Shown: positions 35,090 to 42,967 of the stretch, piece by piece
Layout of the letters: each line of letters starts with the position of its first letter
Numbering within the stretch: position 1 is the first letter of the stretch
Source: Bacteroidales bacterium
GTDB lineage: Bacteria > Bacteroidota > Bacteroidia > Bacteroidales > Tenuifilaceae
NCBI GenBank assembly: GCA_011045955.1
Contig: DSBV01000034.1
Coordinates: forward strand, 1 to 47,927
DNA: 47,927 nucleotides
Direction: 5' to 3'
Program-made: the position numbers and the translations under genes
Notes under the pieces: generated by a model
Database searches by the model: none
Seen by the model: the letters and a program-made list of their open reading frames with translations, nothing else
Told to the model about the DNA's origin: nothing

Positions 35090-35962
35090 ATGGAAAGTTC
35101 AGGGTTTCATCTCCCTATTAGTGAGCCTATCTCAGTTTTTTGAATTACCCTTTTAGCATTATTTATTATCCCATTAGTTATCATAATTAAAACTTCTGGG
35201 CATTATTGGCTTTTTTATCACCTTACTTAGGTTGTGAAAGACGAGAATGAAACTTCCAGAGTTAACGACCTTGCTGCTAAAGCGGAAGAAATTAGCCATA
35301 GCTTAGGTATTGATACGGAGTGGGCTGTTCGGGTTGATATCAGCATCTCCTCAGGAATTGTGAGAGCAGCAAAGGAAATGCTTGCATCTAAAATTATAAT
35401 GGGGTGGTTGGGTAAATACATTTCATCGCGCCGATGGATTTTTGGAACAATACTGGAAGGAGTGCTTGATGATGTCAAGCAGCCCGTTTACATCTGTAGC
35501 CTTAAATAGCCCATTGAGCAACTTTCGCAAGTCCATATTTTAATCCCCAGCAATGCCGAGTTTGATTCCGATTTTAAGAACTACATGAAAAGTATTGAGA
35601 GAATTTTAAAGAAAACTCATCGGAAGATAACCCTGATTGTTGATAGAATTCATTCCGAGAACGTATTGGCTGAACTGCCTTCTACATTCAGTAAGCTAAA
35701 ACCAACCGTAAAGGAAATACGGAAATGGGAGGAAGGGTTTAACCGCCTAAAAGATATCGATACTAACGCACTAGGAATTATAATATCTGCCTGTAAAGGA
35801 ACAGTAGCCTACAACAGCGATATACAGAATACCCTTTTGCTTACCAGTCAAATTATCTCCGATAAAAATGTTGTAATTATCTACCCTGCTATTCATGGAA
35901 CATCAATAATCGATTCCCGAACACTGCTATTGGGAACCGGACGCATGATAACTGAGAACTAA
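35090..35962 (+). pseudogene. Relic of a cation:proton antiporter (CPA2 type) with universal stress domain
   Basis: One plus-strand reading frame holds both ends of an antiporter gene but not its middle. From an ATG at 35090 it reads MESSGFHLPISEPISVF, a TGA stop (35141), then ITLLALFIIPLV; a +1 shift then gives LKLLGIIGFF, the usual first membrane segment. After a TAG at 35228 the original frame resumes with the cytoplasmic universal-stress-like region (SLGIDTEWAVRVDISISSGI, ASKIIMGWLGKY). It meets another TAG (35507) and continues PIEQLSQVHILIPSNAEF and on to 35962. About 300-400 residues of membrane domain are missing. Three stops, a frameshift and a large deletion make this a true pseudogene. 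Its tail overlaps the end of the opposite-strand NTPase gene by 36 bases. Confidence 0.82.
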
Positions 35963-37600
35963 GCTTTTAATGCTATGAGCAGTATCGTTTACACTAACTT
36001 TATTAATATCAAATACGTAGGCATCGTTTAGCTTCCACCGTTCAGCAACATGCATTAGGTTTTCGCGCCTTACCGTTAGTATTAAGATATTCAGAGTTTT
36101 AGTAAGATGATATTCTACTAGTTCGGCCCATACCTCGCCATAGAGTTCCATTCGGCCTACCTCATCAATTACAAGTATATCATCAGCTTTAATTGAAACA
36201 AGTTCGGTAGTTAGCCCCTTAATAACCTCATCATTAAACTCGAATGATTTATTTGGCAGGCCACAAGCACCAATACGGTGGCACAACATCATTTCTTTAC
36301 CATCTGGAATTATCCGTAAATTATATCCCTCTCGTAGTGGAGGCGCACCTATACCTCTGGCGATAAATCCTCTAAAGTTTATCGCTTTATCCTTTCCCAA
36401 AATTTTCAGTAGATTTTCAAGGTAGGTTGATTTTCCCTCGCCTAACCCGCCTGTAATAATTATAATTGGTCGATTACCACTCCAACTGGGATTTTTTATT
36501 ACTCCCTGAATATCCTTAATAGCGTTTGATGCTGACAAATTGATGTTTTGGAAAACATTCAGATAAATAGGCAATGCATTGAATGCCATACTTGAAGCAT
36601 AGTAAACCGGAGTAAAAAAGCCCCTGTTAAAAAACTGGCTAACCGCTGGTTTTGCAAGTTCAGTACCAATAGCAGCCAACGTAACCACAACAAAAATAGC
36701 CCTCACAAAAATATAGGTGCCATACGCTGGCACTAAAGCAACCTTGGTTGTAAAAAGTGGAATTAGGAAAGAAAAAAACAAAACAGGCACAACAAAAAAA
36801 GGTTTCAACAGCATTCTTCGTGGTCTTTCGTAAAATAGGACAATTAACAAAGCATACCCTACCCCACTCAAAATTGCAGTAGCAATGGGCATAGTTGAAG
36901 CATAAGTAAGGTATACAACCAGGGCAGCAAGATGAATAATCAGTAGAAAATAATTTCTAAAATCTATCTTTCCACCCTTCTCCCCAAAAATAGTCAGCTC
37001 AATTTGACTTGAAGCAAAGGTGGAATTATTTTTTCCTAAACTAAACCCGATTATTGCCGAAAGTATGCCTAAAATAAAGTAGATAGCTAATAACGTATAA
37101 ACTAATGAGCTGGTAATAACAATGGTATTACTTTTGGATAATTGAGAAATTAAACCCATAAAAAAATCCACAATTCCTTGGCCATAAAGCATATAAAGTC
37201 GAACTGCTTTAAAAAGCGGTACAGCGATCAAAGCCAAACCGCCGCCCAAGGCCAGCCCCAAAGCATTTGTTCCCAAAACAAGCACCCCTGCCTCAATCAA
37301 TAGCCCTTCAACCAATATTCCCACCATAGGCTGTAAAATAACAGCGCTTGGCGATACCGACTTCAGTAAGGCACAAATTAGTGCAGCTCTCCAAAAAAAT
37401 CCTCGCTGAATGCCGTTAGCCGAAATAACCGAAACGATAAAAACGCCAAGAAAAGCCAGTAATGTTCCGGCCACCATGGGAATCATCAGGTTGTGTAATG
37501 CCGAACCCAAGGTGATTTCCAGTGCGCCCCAAATGCTACCACCAATAATAGCCATTTGCCACAATGGGCTAAGCTTGTATGCCACTCTATTCCATTCCAC
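35927..37600 (-). CDS. ECF-transporter-like membrane protein fused to THEP1-family NTPase
   Basis: 557 residues. Residues 15-200 contain about five hydrophobic segments that resemble an ECF S-component-like bundle. Residues 215-375 contain further segments, and VRAIFVVVTLAAIGTELAKP through NALPIYLNV recall the EcfT/CbiQ transmembrane family. The last ~180 residues are a THEP1-like (NTPase_1) P-loop domain: Walker A TGGLGEGKST (near 386), RGFIARG, and the diagnostic Walker B ILVIDEVGRMEL (near 472). THEP1 enzymes hydrolyse nucleoside triphosphates, but their role is poorly known. The membrane assignment is weaker than the NTPase one. It follows a small membrane protein, overlapping it by 14 bases. 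Confidence 0.82.
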   Translation of the reverse strand: MEWNRVAYKLSPLWQMAIIGGSIWGALEITLGSALHNLMIPMVAGTLLAFLGVFIVSVISANGIQRGFFWRAALICALLKSVSPSAVILQPMVGILVEGLLIEAGVLVLGTNALGLALGGGLALIAVPLFKAVRLYMLYGQGIVDFFMGLISQLSKSNTIVITSSLVYTLLAIYFILGILSAIIGFSLGKNNSTFASSQIELTIFGEKGGKIDFRNYFLLIIHLAALVVYLTYASTMPIATAILSGVGYALLIVLFYERPRRMLLKPFFVVPVLFFSFLIPLFTTKVALVPAYGTYIFVRAIFVVVTLAAIGTELAKPAVSQFFNRGFFTPVYYASSMAFNALPIYLNVFQNINLSASNAIKDIQGVIKNPSWSGNRPIIIITGGLGEGKSTYLENLLKILGKDKAINFRGFIARGIGAPPLREGYNLRIIPDGKEMMLCHRIGACGLPNKSFEFNDEVIKGLTTELVSIKADDILVIDEVGRMELYGEVWAELVEYHLTKTLNILILTVRRENLMHVAERWKLNDAYVFDINKVSVNDTAHSIKSLVLSYHASGSQ

Positions 37601-37928
37601 TCGTTACCCTTGGATTTTGTACAACAATCAAGTAGTCAATGGCCAGAACAAAAAGCAAAACAAACTCTACATCCTGAAACCCTATAAGGTTTAGAATAAT
37701 AGTAGTAATAATAAATCCCAAAGTGAACCGCCTATACCTGTCAGCTTTATAGAGTTTTTGCCTATTCCTGATATAAATACTCAACCTATGCAAAATCATT
37801 GGCACAAATGCCAAGTAGAATAGCAATACCCCCACTTTATAGAATCCCAATCGAACTAATCCAGCCACTATGAGCAAACCCACCGTAAAAAGGATTAGCT
37901 TTCGCTCAGATATTCTGATTTTTCCCAT
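37587..37928 (-). CDS. Small four-helix membrane protein, partner of the NTPase fusion
   Basis: 113 residues with about four hydrophobic segments (ILFTVGLLIVAGLVRLGF, VGVLLFYLAFVPMIL, FTLGFIITTIILNLIGF, VEFVLLFVLAIDYLIVV) and basic loops. I do not recognise the family. Its 3' end overlaps the start of the NTPase fusion by 14 bases, so the two are translationally coupled and likely act in the same complex. Confidence 0.8.
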   Translation of the reverse strand: MGKIRISERKLILFTVGLLIVAGLVRLGFYKVGVLLFYLAFVPMILHRLSIYIRNRQKLYKADRYRRFTLGFIITTIILNLIGFQDVEFVLLFVLAIDYLIVVQNPRVTSGME

Positions 37929-40639: not shown

Positions 40640-40912
40640 TTAATACATCTTTCGATTCGTGCTTGTGCTCACATGGTTTATCGCAGGGCTCTTTATGCTC
40701 CTTACCGTTGCAGCAGCATCATTCTTGGTGCTACTGGCAAGTGAGTTAACCTTTGTTGAATCGCAGCAATCCTTGCTTTCAGCCTTGCCATGATCGCCAC
40801 AACATTCAGTTTTTGCCTGGTTGTTATTATCACTTGCCTTTGAACCGCATGACATTAATGCAATGCTGCCAACAAACAAAAGCGCTGATACAATTAATAC
40901 TACCTTCTTCAT
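40640..40912 (-). CDS. Small Cys-rich lipoprotein, probably frameshifted
   Basis: 90 residues as annotated. A signal with lipobox ALMSC predicts a lipid-anchored protein; the mature N-terminus has ECCGDHGKAESKDCCDS, a likely metal-binding segment. After residue ~65 the frame turns into unlike, low-information sequence (AAATVRSIKS to NRKMY). The frame shifted by one base, from about 40720, instead reads CCCNGKEHKEPCDKPCEHKH and ESKD, continuing the Cys/His-rich theme. That frame runs on through the terminator to a stop at 40590. A missing base near the GCTGCTGC tract is therefore suspected. It sits 18 bases downstream of a TonB-dependent receptor and is likely co-transcribed with it. Confidence 0.7.
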   Translation of the reverse strand: MKKVVLIVSALLFVGSIALMSCGSKASDNNNQAKTECCGDHGKAESKDCCDSTKVNSLASSTKNDAAATVRSIKSPAINHVSTSTNRKMY

Positions 40913-40930: not shown

Positions 40931-42967
40931 TTAATTTGCATATAAATCAAATCTATAATTAATTCCAAGCCCAATCCATCGTCCTGGCTGTTTCACATTG
41001 TCTATGTCAACATATTGACTATCAAACAGATTATTAACATCAAAATAGATATTTACTTTTTTGAAAACATATCCAGCCCTTACATCCATCAGGAAAACAT
41101 CGGGATATGAAGTAGGGATAGACGTATTTGAATCGGTATATTTTAAATACTCTCCATTTCTGTCCTGATACCTTAGGTTCCAATTCAGGTATAGGTTTTT
41201 AAAGGCATGCTGTATATTCAATGTTACACAATGCCTTAGGTAATCGAGCACATAGTATGAATCGAGTTCGCTTTTATCTTTTTCACTTTCGATATAGGCA
41301 TACGATAGTGTAATCCTATCGGTGAAAATATTCAGGCTTTTAGTATTCACACTCAGGTTAATATTTGAACCCCACGCGTTAAGTTTAGTATAGTTCACAG
41401 TTGTCCAAACCGTTTCGTTTGCCTTTTTTACCCAGTCGATGATGTCGGTACCCTGCCTGTAAAATAGAGCAACCTCGGCAGTCAAGCTATTTTGGTTCAA
41501 TCTTAGACCCAATTCATAGGTAGTAGCAAACTCTGCATGCAGGTAAGGGTTGCCCATATTGGTTGGCCCCTGGTAGTATAAATCGGTAAATGTTGGCAAC
41601 CTGAACGATCGATTTACCGAAGCAAAAGGCCTGATTTGTTGATACAAATCGTACGATAAATCGGCTCCCCAGGTCCAGATGTCGCCAAACTTATTGGAAT
41701 GATTAAATTGCCCACCAACCGAGAAAGAAAATTGCTTAAAAAAGAAATTTTGGCTGGCATAAGCCATAAGATGATTACGTGAATCGCCTTTTGTGTAGTA
41801 AACATCATCACCCCGAACCTTAACGGAATCGATTAAAGGACTTCCGAGTTTATTGCTCAGTAATTCCTCTCGCCTTAACTCAACGCCTACATCGGTTTTA
41901 CCCCACTGGTAAAAACGACTTAACGATAGCTTTGATCCGTACACATCGGTAGCATGGTAGTTATGCCCGGAATACCACTCGGCTAGATTGGTTCGGAAAA
42001 GTTCAAATCTATCGGTATGTTTACGGTAGTAAGTTGCCGCTTTAACGGTAAAATTTTTCCAGATTTTATCATAACTAAGCGAACCTAAAATGGCCCTGGT
42101 TGCCTCATACTGATTGGGATACTTGGGGGTATAAAAACTGTTAGCGCCAAATCCTTTATCCTGATACCCCGTAAATAAATTAAGCTCTGCTTTGTTGAAT
42201 GAATAAGATGAATGAAGGTAGATGTTCAGAATTTTGAAATCGGTATTTTCAATAAACCCATCGCTCTTGTCGTACGAAGTTGCTAGGAAAGTACGAAAAT
42301 TTTTACTGCCAATGTGTTGCGAAATGGAAACCTTGGTTAAACCATACTCCCCAGCAAAAAGCGAAAGTTCACCCCTACCACTGCCATCGGGTTTTGTGAT
42401 AATGTTAATTGCTCCGGCAAAAGCGCCAACACCAAACTCCCTAGCCCCAGGGCCTTGCAGTATTTCGATTCGATCTACTGCATCAATATTAATGGGAATG
42501 TTTAAGTTGTGATGGCCGGTTTGCGGATCGGAAACGTTGACACCATTCAGCAAGACCATTACCTGATCGAACGAGCCACCCCTTAAATTAATATCAGCCT
42601 GAACACCATGGGTTCCGCGCTGCCTGATATCAATAGCCGCCACCTGCTCGAGTAACTCTCCAAGCGCCATGGCCTTACGTTGCCCCAGCTCATCGCGGTT
42701 AACAACCCTTACTACCCTGGTAAGCTCCGAATAGGTGCTCGCTTTCTTACGAGCATTTACCACAACCTCTTCGATATCGACATTTTTTGTTATCGCAACG
42801 CTATCGGACTGGGCAAAGGTTGCCATTGGCATGGCCAACAAACAATAAGAAAAGGGCAATACCCCAATGGTTACCACTGTTTTAAAACTCTCAAAAACAC
42901 CGTAACCCTTGTGCGACCATTTTGTAAATCGCATTACCATATTACTGAAAAACATTTTTTTACGCAT
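40931..42967 (-). CDS. TonB-dependent receptor (BtuB/siderophore-type, 678 residues)
   Basis: An outer membrane receptor of classic length with a long, basic N-terminus before its hydrophobic signal segment (VLPFSYCLLAMPMATFA). Next is the TonB-box/plug region: VDIEEVVVNARKKAS, LGELLEQVAAIDIRQRG, INLRGGSFDQVMVLLNGVNV and IEILQGPGAREFGVGAFAGAINIITK. The barrel ends in RFDLYAN. There is no CarboxypepD-reg domain, unlike the receptor at 29100. It resembles cobalamin/metal-chelate receptors in layout, but the ligand cannot be read from sequence. No cobalamin riboswitch was recognised upstream. The downstream Cys-rich lipoprotein hints at a metal. Confidence 0.9.
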   Translation of the reverse strand: MRKKMFFSNMVMRFTKWSHKGYGVFESFKTVVTIGVLPFSYCLLAMPMATFAQSDSVAITKNVDIEEVVVNARKKASTYSELTRVVRVVNRDELGQRKAMALGELLEQVAAIDIRQRGTHGVQADINLRGGSFDQVMVLLNGVNVSDPQTGHHNLNIPINIDAVDRIEILQGPGAREFGVGAFAGAINIITKPDGSGRGELSLFAGEYGLTKVSISQHIGSKNFRTFLATSYDKSDGFIENTDFKILNIYLHSSYSFNKAELNLFTGYQDKGFGANSFYTPKYPNQYEATRAILGSLSYDKIWKNFTVKAATYYRKHTDRFELFRTNLAEWYSGHNYHATDVYGSKLSLSRFYQWGKTDVGVELRREELLSNKLGSPLIDSVKVRGDDVYYTKGDSRNHLMAYASQNFFFKQFSFSVGGQFNHSNKFGDIWTWGADLSYDLYQQIRPFASVNRSFRLPTFTDLYYQGPTNMGNPYLHAEFATTYELGLRLNQNSLTAEVALFYRQGTDIIDWVKKANETVWTTVNYTKLNAWGSNINLSVNTKSLNIFTDRITLSYAYIESEKDKSELDSYYVLDYLRHCVTLNIQHAFKNLYLNWNLRYQDRNGEYLKYTDSNTSIPTSYPDVFLMDVRAGYVFKKVNIYFDVNNLFDSQYVDIDNVKQPGRWIGLGINYRFDLYAN

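Follow-up and report, generated by a model that had tools for sequence, protein, structure and literature searches.

What does a protein do that joins two membrane domains to a THEP1-type nucleoside triphosphatase (NTPase) in a single chain? This question is raised by a stretch of 47,927 nucleotides from a Bacteroidales bacterium of the family Tenuifilaceae (contig DSBV01000034.1), which is called the window in the following. On its minus strand lies a gene whose product consists of an S-like and a T-like membrane domain, named after the S- and T-components of energy-coupling factor (ECF) transporters, followed by the NTPase. The system formed by this fusion probably serves molybdenum-cofactor supply. 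Tentatively, we favour the reading that it is a single-chain ECF-related importer, driven or gated by its THEP1 NTPase, for molybdenum cofactor (Moco), molybdopterin or a pterin precursor. The parts of the gene are:

35927..37600, minus strand: 557-residue fusion of S-like membrane domain, T-like membrane domain and THEP1 NTPase (open reading frame call, GTG start)
37016..37567, minus strand: S-like membrane domain, residues 12-195, six predicted helices (alignment of 34 sequences; weak Pfam matches in other members only)
37526..37552, minus strand: small-xxx-small-xxx-small pattern in helix 1 (A17, G21, G25), likened to the Ala-X3-Ala of S-components
36473..36973, minus strand: T-like membrane domain, residues 210-376, apparently CbiQ/EcfT-related, lacking the Ala-Arg-Gly signature (hhalign comparison with 26 CbiQ proteins)
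35951..36472, minus strand: THEP1/NTPase_1 domain, residues 377-550 (PF03266 and PDB 1ye8 matches)
36428..36454, minus strand: Walker A motif TGGLGEGKS, residues 383-391 (sequence pattern)
36158..36178, minus strand: Walker B motif VIDEVG with D479 and E480, residues 475-481 (sequence pattern)

The fusion family and its NTPase domain

The fusion family was matched by 36 of 60 genomes of relatives, and the open reading frame is therefore no product of chance. We kept 34 of these genomes and set aside a fragment with three stops (G008) and a weak match to the NTPase only (G045). Among the 34, the whole fusion is present in one reading frame in 31, it is broken by contig ends in G015, and in G033 and G040 two genes located on different contigs encode the membrane part and the NTPase. 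The alignment of 34 sequences comprises the window protein, 31 further fused proteins and two membrane-only genes (L066, L067). The membrane part is its most conserved region, and the residues W14, G21, W24, E28, G32, S33, H36, N37, P41, G67, R71, K80, S83, P84, S85, P91, Y139, G140, R300 and E314 are invariant. Viral contigs yielded 30 pattern matches, none of them a relative. Two observations on membership may be added. A contig titled Bacillota (L031) carries an 86% identical fusion in the gene order of the window, probably due to a binning error. The decayed fragment (G008:C100:193-495) lies in a genome that retains MoaC, MoeA and two enzymes of the xanthine dehydrogenase (XDH) type.

The Pfam profile NTPase_1 (PF03266) matches residues 380-538 of the window protein with an E-value of 3.9e-16 (59.8 bits, cut-off 23.9). 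It also matches 32 of the 34 aligned relatives at E <= 1, the exceptions being the two membrane-only genes, and G389, K390, D479 and E480 are kept in all 32 rows having the domain. The closest solved structures are 1ye8 (Aquifex THEP1; E 2.9e-4 with the window protein and 4e-17 with the family profile) and 2i3b (human NTPase/NTPCR). Judged by its sequence, the C-terminal domain is a THEP1-type NTPase with Walker A, Walker B and catalytic glutamate present. The ABC (ATP-binding cassette) signature [LIVF]SGG[QEKR] was found in none of the 34 fusion members; no search was aimed at separate EcfA genes. The initial annotation had described two open reading frames overlapping by 14 bases, THEP1 signatures to be checked against the NTPase_1 profile, and a membrane region joined to a THEP1-type rather than an ABC-type enzyme in a single chain. 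All of this, including the coordinates, was borne out, the overlap lying at 37587-37600.

The T-like half

For profile comparison with hhalign the membrane part was divided into residues 12-195 and 210-376. Compared with 26 CbiQ proteins of the phylum (four of 30 loci, L079, L080, L094 and L096, were dropped because of cuts at contig ends), the second segment gave an E-value of 5e-4 (score 21.0, 184 columns), and its forward controls, i.e. reversed profiles, S-type sets and neighbouring membrane families, remained at E >= 0.1. Five free-standing T-like proteins reached 1.9e-5 (score 28.9, 178 columns, columns 1-181 against 26-238; controls E >= 0.11). An enlarged set of 53 T-like sequences gave 2.3e-4 and the 19 new ones 1.2e-3; the highest control, 0.013 over 78 columns, was obtained for neighbour family c5 with the 53-sequence set. 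The hhalign probabilities of the relation are low (8-54%). We conclude that the T-like half appears to be related to CbiQ/EcfT, a relation that is distant but reproducible. In single members the Pfam family CbiQ matches weakly (4 of 34, best 0.18; L162 0.038, L161 0.49), in the PDB EcfT is reached at E 3.8 only, and the genome of the window itself contains no CbiQ match. According to an excerpt of a published study, EcfT couples to its ATPases via Ala-Arg-Gly signatures (PMC3246461). The corresponding pattern A..RG occurs in 25 of the 26 CbiQ proteins vs 3 of the 53 T-like sequences.

The S-like half

A low-confidence model predicts about ten helices, six of them between residues 12 and 190 and four between 214 and 315; the count is even, and the loop charges of the membrane part fit a topology with both ends inside. 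AlphaFold2, run on the window protein and four close relatives, gave a mean predicted local distance difference test score of 41.4, with values below 50 throughout the membrane part, which is too low for a fold search. The Ala-X3-Ala motif is assigned a role in S-components in the accessible parts of two papers (PMC3246461, PMC11109136). Among 54 S-like sequences, G, A or S occupies position 17 in 80%, position 21 in 87% and position 25 in 100% of the rows with a letter there; such a pattern in helix 1, being common in membrane helices generally, is weak evidence for an S-component.

Sub-threshold Pfam matches in the S-like half concern Trep_Strep (3 of 34 members, best 0.003; 3 of 31 in a second set, best 0.015) and ABC_cobalt (2 of 31, best 3.2e-4), which we take to be S-component families. 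The membrane part of the window protein had no match to Pfam or NCBIfam, these two families included. No match of the S-like half was obtained to PDB sequences, nor with hhalign to sets of ECF_trnsprt (PF12822-type), BioY and CbiM proteins, which were small (4, 6 and 4 sequences). These three sets contain 14 of the 16 ECF_trnsprt loci retained after nine of 25 (L102-L126) had been dropped. PF09605, tried across the phylum as a source of S-family sequences, matched 1 of 198, below the cut-off. The initial annotation had likened the two hydrophobic blocks to S- and T-components. Both blocks exist, and the second can be upheld through its match to CbiQ, which also speaks against an unrelated permease; the first is S-like only weakly.

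Split and permuted forms

The family profile was searched against 296 genomes of the phylum and the best four candidates per genome were scored. Matches at E <= 0.001 were obtained in 102 genomes, mostly weak P-loop matches, and 25 genomes had a best E-value <= 2e-14; gene surroundings were inspected for 20 of these 25, window included. At five loci outside the order (L160-L164) an S-like gene (198-217 residues), a T-like gene (181-202 residues) and a TonB-dependent receptor gene (639-664 residues) are consecutive in all cases. A THEP1 gene (155-206 residues) directly follows the receptor in L160-L162 and is missing there in L163 and L164. All five follow molybdoenzymes of the dimethyl sulphoxide (DMSO) reductase type, that of L161 lying above the NCBIfam cut-off for DMSO_red_II and that of L162 being NapA/Fdh-like; in L161 a gene for a TatA-type protein (E 4.5e-16) stands immediately before the S-like gene.

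Five further loci (L165-L167, L178, L179) contain a membrane gene of 355-365 residues followed by an NTPase gene of 152-158 residues. Three of them (L166, L178, L179) lie beside NrfD and molybdoenzyme-type genes, and L167 lies beside NrfD and an iron-sulphur subunit only. Finally, in the permuted fusions L168-L171 the NTPase precedes the S-like domain, a T-like match being unreported in three of the four. That the three regions may be separate functional parts is best supported by the modularity of the split loci. Two stand-alone genes were noticed besides: a second, divergent S-like gene (L164:16888-17469, minus strand; genome G110) beside a 538-residue gene with no adjoining NTPase, and in L175 a THEP1 gene overlapping a MocA-type gene with no adjoining membrane parts, the membrane gene being located elsewhere (G121:C35).

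Association with molybdenum metabolism

The neighbourhoods of 54 loci were surveyed over distances of up to 10 kb. Not all of these loci count as independent: L065 is a second piece of G015, and L163 and L179 belong to one genome; the NTPase genes of G040 and G033 (L068, L069) are excluded. As a raw count, uncorrected for background, genes for MocA, XdhC, ModE, XDH-type or DMSO-reductase-type enzymes, MoeA or MogA were found nearby in 25 of the 54 loci. In L050, L052 and L057 the fusion is positioned inside XDH maturation clusters (TrsS, DVU_1553, DVU_1556, DVU_1557, XdhC, MocA). Of these neighbours, TrsS and the three DVU families were identified above the NCBIfam cut-offs, and MocA, XdhC and ModE below them.

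A DUF364/DUF4213 gene adjoins the fusion directly in 12 of the 54 loci. For DUF364 a structure paper suggested the uptake of heavy metals as well as a pterin or flavin derivative; in the part available it relates the family to genes for the transport of molybdate, tungstate and vanadium and to the chelation of metals (PMC2954201). The genome of the window also has, at a site away from the fusion (C41; L190:6671-7378, plus strand), a DUF364 gene of a second and shorter type, with a product of about 236 residues, and most genomes of the family contain one.

Genome-wide, the presence of MoaC, MoeA or an XDH-type enzyme was scored as a molybdenum trait. In the 60 genomes the system is present in 30 of 36 with a molybdenum trait vs 4 of 24 without (p 5.2e-7, shared descent ignored). 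Outside the window's own family, with one genome per family, the values are 10 of 13 vs 2 of 20 (p 1.6e-4, shared descent again ignored).

Carriers apparently lacking cofactor synthesis genes

MoaA and MoaC were found in the same 27 of the 60 genomes, MoeA in those as well as in G046 and G056, and XDH-type enzymes in 28. Matches to the C-terminal domain of MoaA were short and exceeded the cut-off in 13 of the 27 only, and MoaC was therefore added as a marker. Twelve carriers of the system have neither MoaA nor MoaC. Nine of them carry a molybdoenzyme or MoeA, and eight of these nine are at least 90% complete: XDH-type enzymes occur in G012, G017, G026, G036, G038 and G040, MoeA in G046 and G056, and a DMSO-reductase-type gene adjoins in G033. 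The XDH-type enzymes of G012 and G038 retain the GEPP segment, which presumably holds the catalytic glutamate. Among the 33 genomes without MoaC, the system is present in 8 of 9 with an XDH-type enzyme or MoeA vs 4 of 24 others (p 2.8e-4); at a completeness of at least 90% the figures are 7 of 7 vs 3 of 20.

In G046 genes for a TonB receptor, DUF364, the fusion, MoeA and MogA follow each other on one strand, and neither MoaA nor MoaC was found. MoeA and MogA act on finished molybdopterin. Their presence without MoaA and MoaC therefore means that something must supply molybdopterin. Orphan molybdoproteins have been described from several hundred prokaryotes that lack a complete Moco pathway, the cause being left open in the accessible part of that paper (PMC6147048).

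Outer-membrane receptors

A TonB-dependent receptor gene lies farther along the window:

40931..42967, minus strand: TonB-dependent receptor, possible outer-membrane partner, beyond two opposite-strand genes (gene order)

This order is repeated in the five other loci of the window's genus (g1) reaching so far and in L041. The nearest PDB match of the receptor is BtuB (E 3.5e-13). Eight of the 54 loci (L051, L056, L064, L160-L164) have a TonB receptor gene next to the system, no more than 1.1 kb away and in the same orientation. In a tree of 19 receptors with a small background, those of L051 and L064, both fused forms, and of L160-L164 form one clade (support 1.0); the receptor of L056 stands apart, and that of the window belongs to another clade together with its genus. 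The window receptor is a possible outer-membrane partner of the fusion within its genus. Its gene is followed by one for a small, secreted-looking, Cys-rich protein (40640-40912, minus strand; CCGDHGKAESKDCC); four further genus-mates whose sequence covers this position have relatives there.

Proposed role and alternative explanations

In the reading we favour, import of Moco, molybdopterin or a pterin precursor, the fusion may work like an ECF transporter. A TonB receptor, where encoded next door, would together with TonB carry the cargo across the outer membrane into the periplasm. There the S-like domain would bind it, and the T-like domain, fused behind the S-like domain, would act as membrane scaffold. 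The cytoplasmic THEP1 domain would take the place of the ABC ATPases, its use of NTP either freeing the cargo into the cytoplasm or resetting the S-like domain. For the genome of the window the cargo would be an additional salvage source beside its own synthesis, for relatives without MoaA and MoaC the only source. What was observed comprises the domains, the split genes, the likeness of the T-like half to CbiQ, the missing ABC-coupling motif, the neighbouring genes and the co-occurrence; transport, its direction, NTP use and cargo we infer. That a TonB receptor and ECF-like S and T parts, powered by THEP1 instead of ABC ATPases, together constitute a previously unrecognised kind of importer of Moco or molybdopterin is a possibility that we put forward with reserve.

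Several points weigh against cofactor import. The genome of the window encodes MoaA, MoaC and MoeA as well as two XDH-type enzymes, and with synthesis genes of its own it need not salvage. In individual carriers the absence of MoaA and MoaC may reflect a gap in a metagenome-assembled genome: MoaC, MoaA and MoeA are neighbours in the genome of the window (L180), so that one gap could remove all three. No molybdenum gene lies near the fusion in the loci of any of the 10 genomes of the genera g1 and g4, window included. Three carriers (G018, G022, G039) have no molybdenum trait that was found, DMSO-reductase-type enzymes being outside the genome-wide search, and six genomes with a molybdenum trait have no usable copy (G008, G016, G025, G028, G042, G058). 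Some of the neighbours, namely MocA, XdhC and ModE, owe their names to similarity below the NCBIfam cut-offs. The first membrane half is only weakly identified as an S-component. Furthermore, the T-like half also matches TgpA_N (15 of 34, best 9e-5) and DUF2339 (1e-4). Pfam matches to unrelated families are thus as strong here as those of the S-like half to S-component families, so that in membrane proteins matches of this kind cannot be relied on and deserve little weight alone. An identity with TgpA_N or DUF2339 was rejected: the matches were taken to reflect composition, and the split genes and the CbiQ profile fit better.

The main rival assumes the same machine with another cargo, namely tungstate or molybdate or one of these in chelated form (molybdophore), the pterin being obtained or made in another way. 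ModE and MocA beside the fusion fit this assumption, and so do the DUF364 genes adjoining 12 of the 54 loci, the family being tied to metal transport and chelation in the accessible text of PMC2954201; a TonB receptor would suit a chelate. With such a cargo, however, the MoeA and MogA genes lined up with the fusion in G046 would be idle unless molybdopterin were imported or otherwise supplied, and it does not account for the eight carriers at least 90% complete that possess molybdenum enzymes or MoeA and neither MoaA nor MoaC. We regard it as rather unlikely.

The fusion could also be a membrane-bound assembly factor, in which an S/T-like scaffold and a MobB-like THEP1 chaperone hand Moco to enzymes without any transport. 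This would agree with its place within the three XDH maturation clusters, with weak matches of MobB to 15 of the 34 members (best E 0.0014) and with the NTPase of L175, which lies next to MocA without a membrane part. Import is suggested instead by the kinship of the T-like half with CbiQ and by the consecutive TonB receptor genes in L160-L164, and we consider an assembly factor improbable. There is little likelihood, too, of an ECF-like importer of another micronutrient, e.g. a corrinoid, with an indirect link to molybdenum: the closeness of the window receptor to BtuB and the three carriers without a molybdenum trait would be explained, but the co-occurrence and the neighbourhoods would not, and the window receptor lies outside the clade of receptors adjoining the system elsewhere.

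Relation to known systems

ECF transporters, which are defined by their ABC ATPases, combine an S-component with EcfT/CbiQ and EcfA/EcfA'. The fusion shares with them the order of S-like and T-like parts, small residues at i, i+4 and i+8 in helix 1, the relation of its T-like half to CbiQ and the micronutrient context. It differs by its THEP1-type NTPase in place of an ABC ATPase domain or signature, by the union of three parts in one chain and by the missing Ala-Arg-Gly coupling signature in 50 of 53 T-like sequences. With A..RG rare and the ABC signature absent, the fusion lacks two features by which ECF transporters are defined, and we do not file it among them. With THEP1/NTPase_1 proteins (1ye8, 2i3b) it has in common Walker A, Walker B with a glutamate of the ASCE (additional strand, catalytic E) type and the profile match over the whole domain. 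The known members are soluble, whereas here membrane parts share a chain with the domain or are encoded beside it. THEP1 proteins are described as soluble, with solved structures and no known cell role, in the portion of PMC1079890 available.

The receptor genes that stand next to those for the inner-membrane parts (8 of the 54 loci) recall BtuB-BtuCDF, a pair of TonB receptor and inner-membrane importer, but no periplasmic binding protein or ABC module was recognised in the inspected loci. ModABC, TupABC and WtpABC are ABC importers of molybdate or tungstate with a binding protein and serve molybdoenzymes. The fusion would share this supply function; no sequence relation to them was seen, and no search for them was made in these genomes.

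A literature search on THEP1 combined with ECF returned no description of such a system, and the accessible portion of a paper on the S-component fold makes no mention of an NTPase (PMC11109136). Titles and abstract openings on Moco or molybdopterin import name no bacterial importer; dietary Moco is treated for a nematode in the part available of PMC9793310. If the proposal is true, an S/T membrane engine can run on a P-loop enzyme other than ABC ATPases, the cofactor source of bacteria with orphan molybdoenzymes is explained, and bacterial THEP1 proteins gain a cell role.

The small adjoining gene and the end of the locus

The gene overlapping the start of the fusion is:

37587..37928, minus strand: 113-residue small membrane protein, a positional neighbour judged to be outside the system (conservation survey)

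Every one of the family's 27 genomes has it, even the four without the fusion (G014, G016, G019, G025), and it stands beside the fusion in 10 of the 22 fusion-bearing genomes of the family, which belong to the genera g1 and g4. None of the 12 carriers of the system from other families has it, the one weak match being in G059, which has no system. At the one other site inspected (L193 in G018) the small gene is succeeded by EamA, UPF0029 and pyrBI genes, a block that in two genomes of genus g4 comes after the fusion (L041, L042). Since small gene and block are joined in G018, the fusion looks inserted between them. The 14-base overlap is a local arrangement, and the small gene is no dedicated partner. 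The complex with a small four-helix protein suggested by the initial annotation is hence abandoned: a dedicated two-gene complex, for which the overlap and the adjacency in ten genomes of g1 and g4 could be adduced, is very improbable in view of the small gene's persistence without the fusion, its absence from outside carriers and its other gene block in G018.

On the opposite side of the fusion (35090-35962, plus strand) the window contains the remains of a gene for a 683-residue transporter (cluster c21), broken into short open reading frames. The transporter is intact in L035, L036 and L038, and the remnant in the window matches only residues 1-29 and 441-683 at 80-83% identity.

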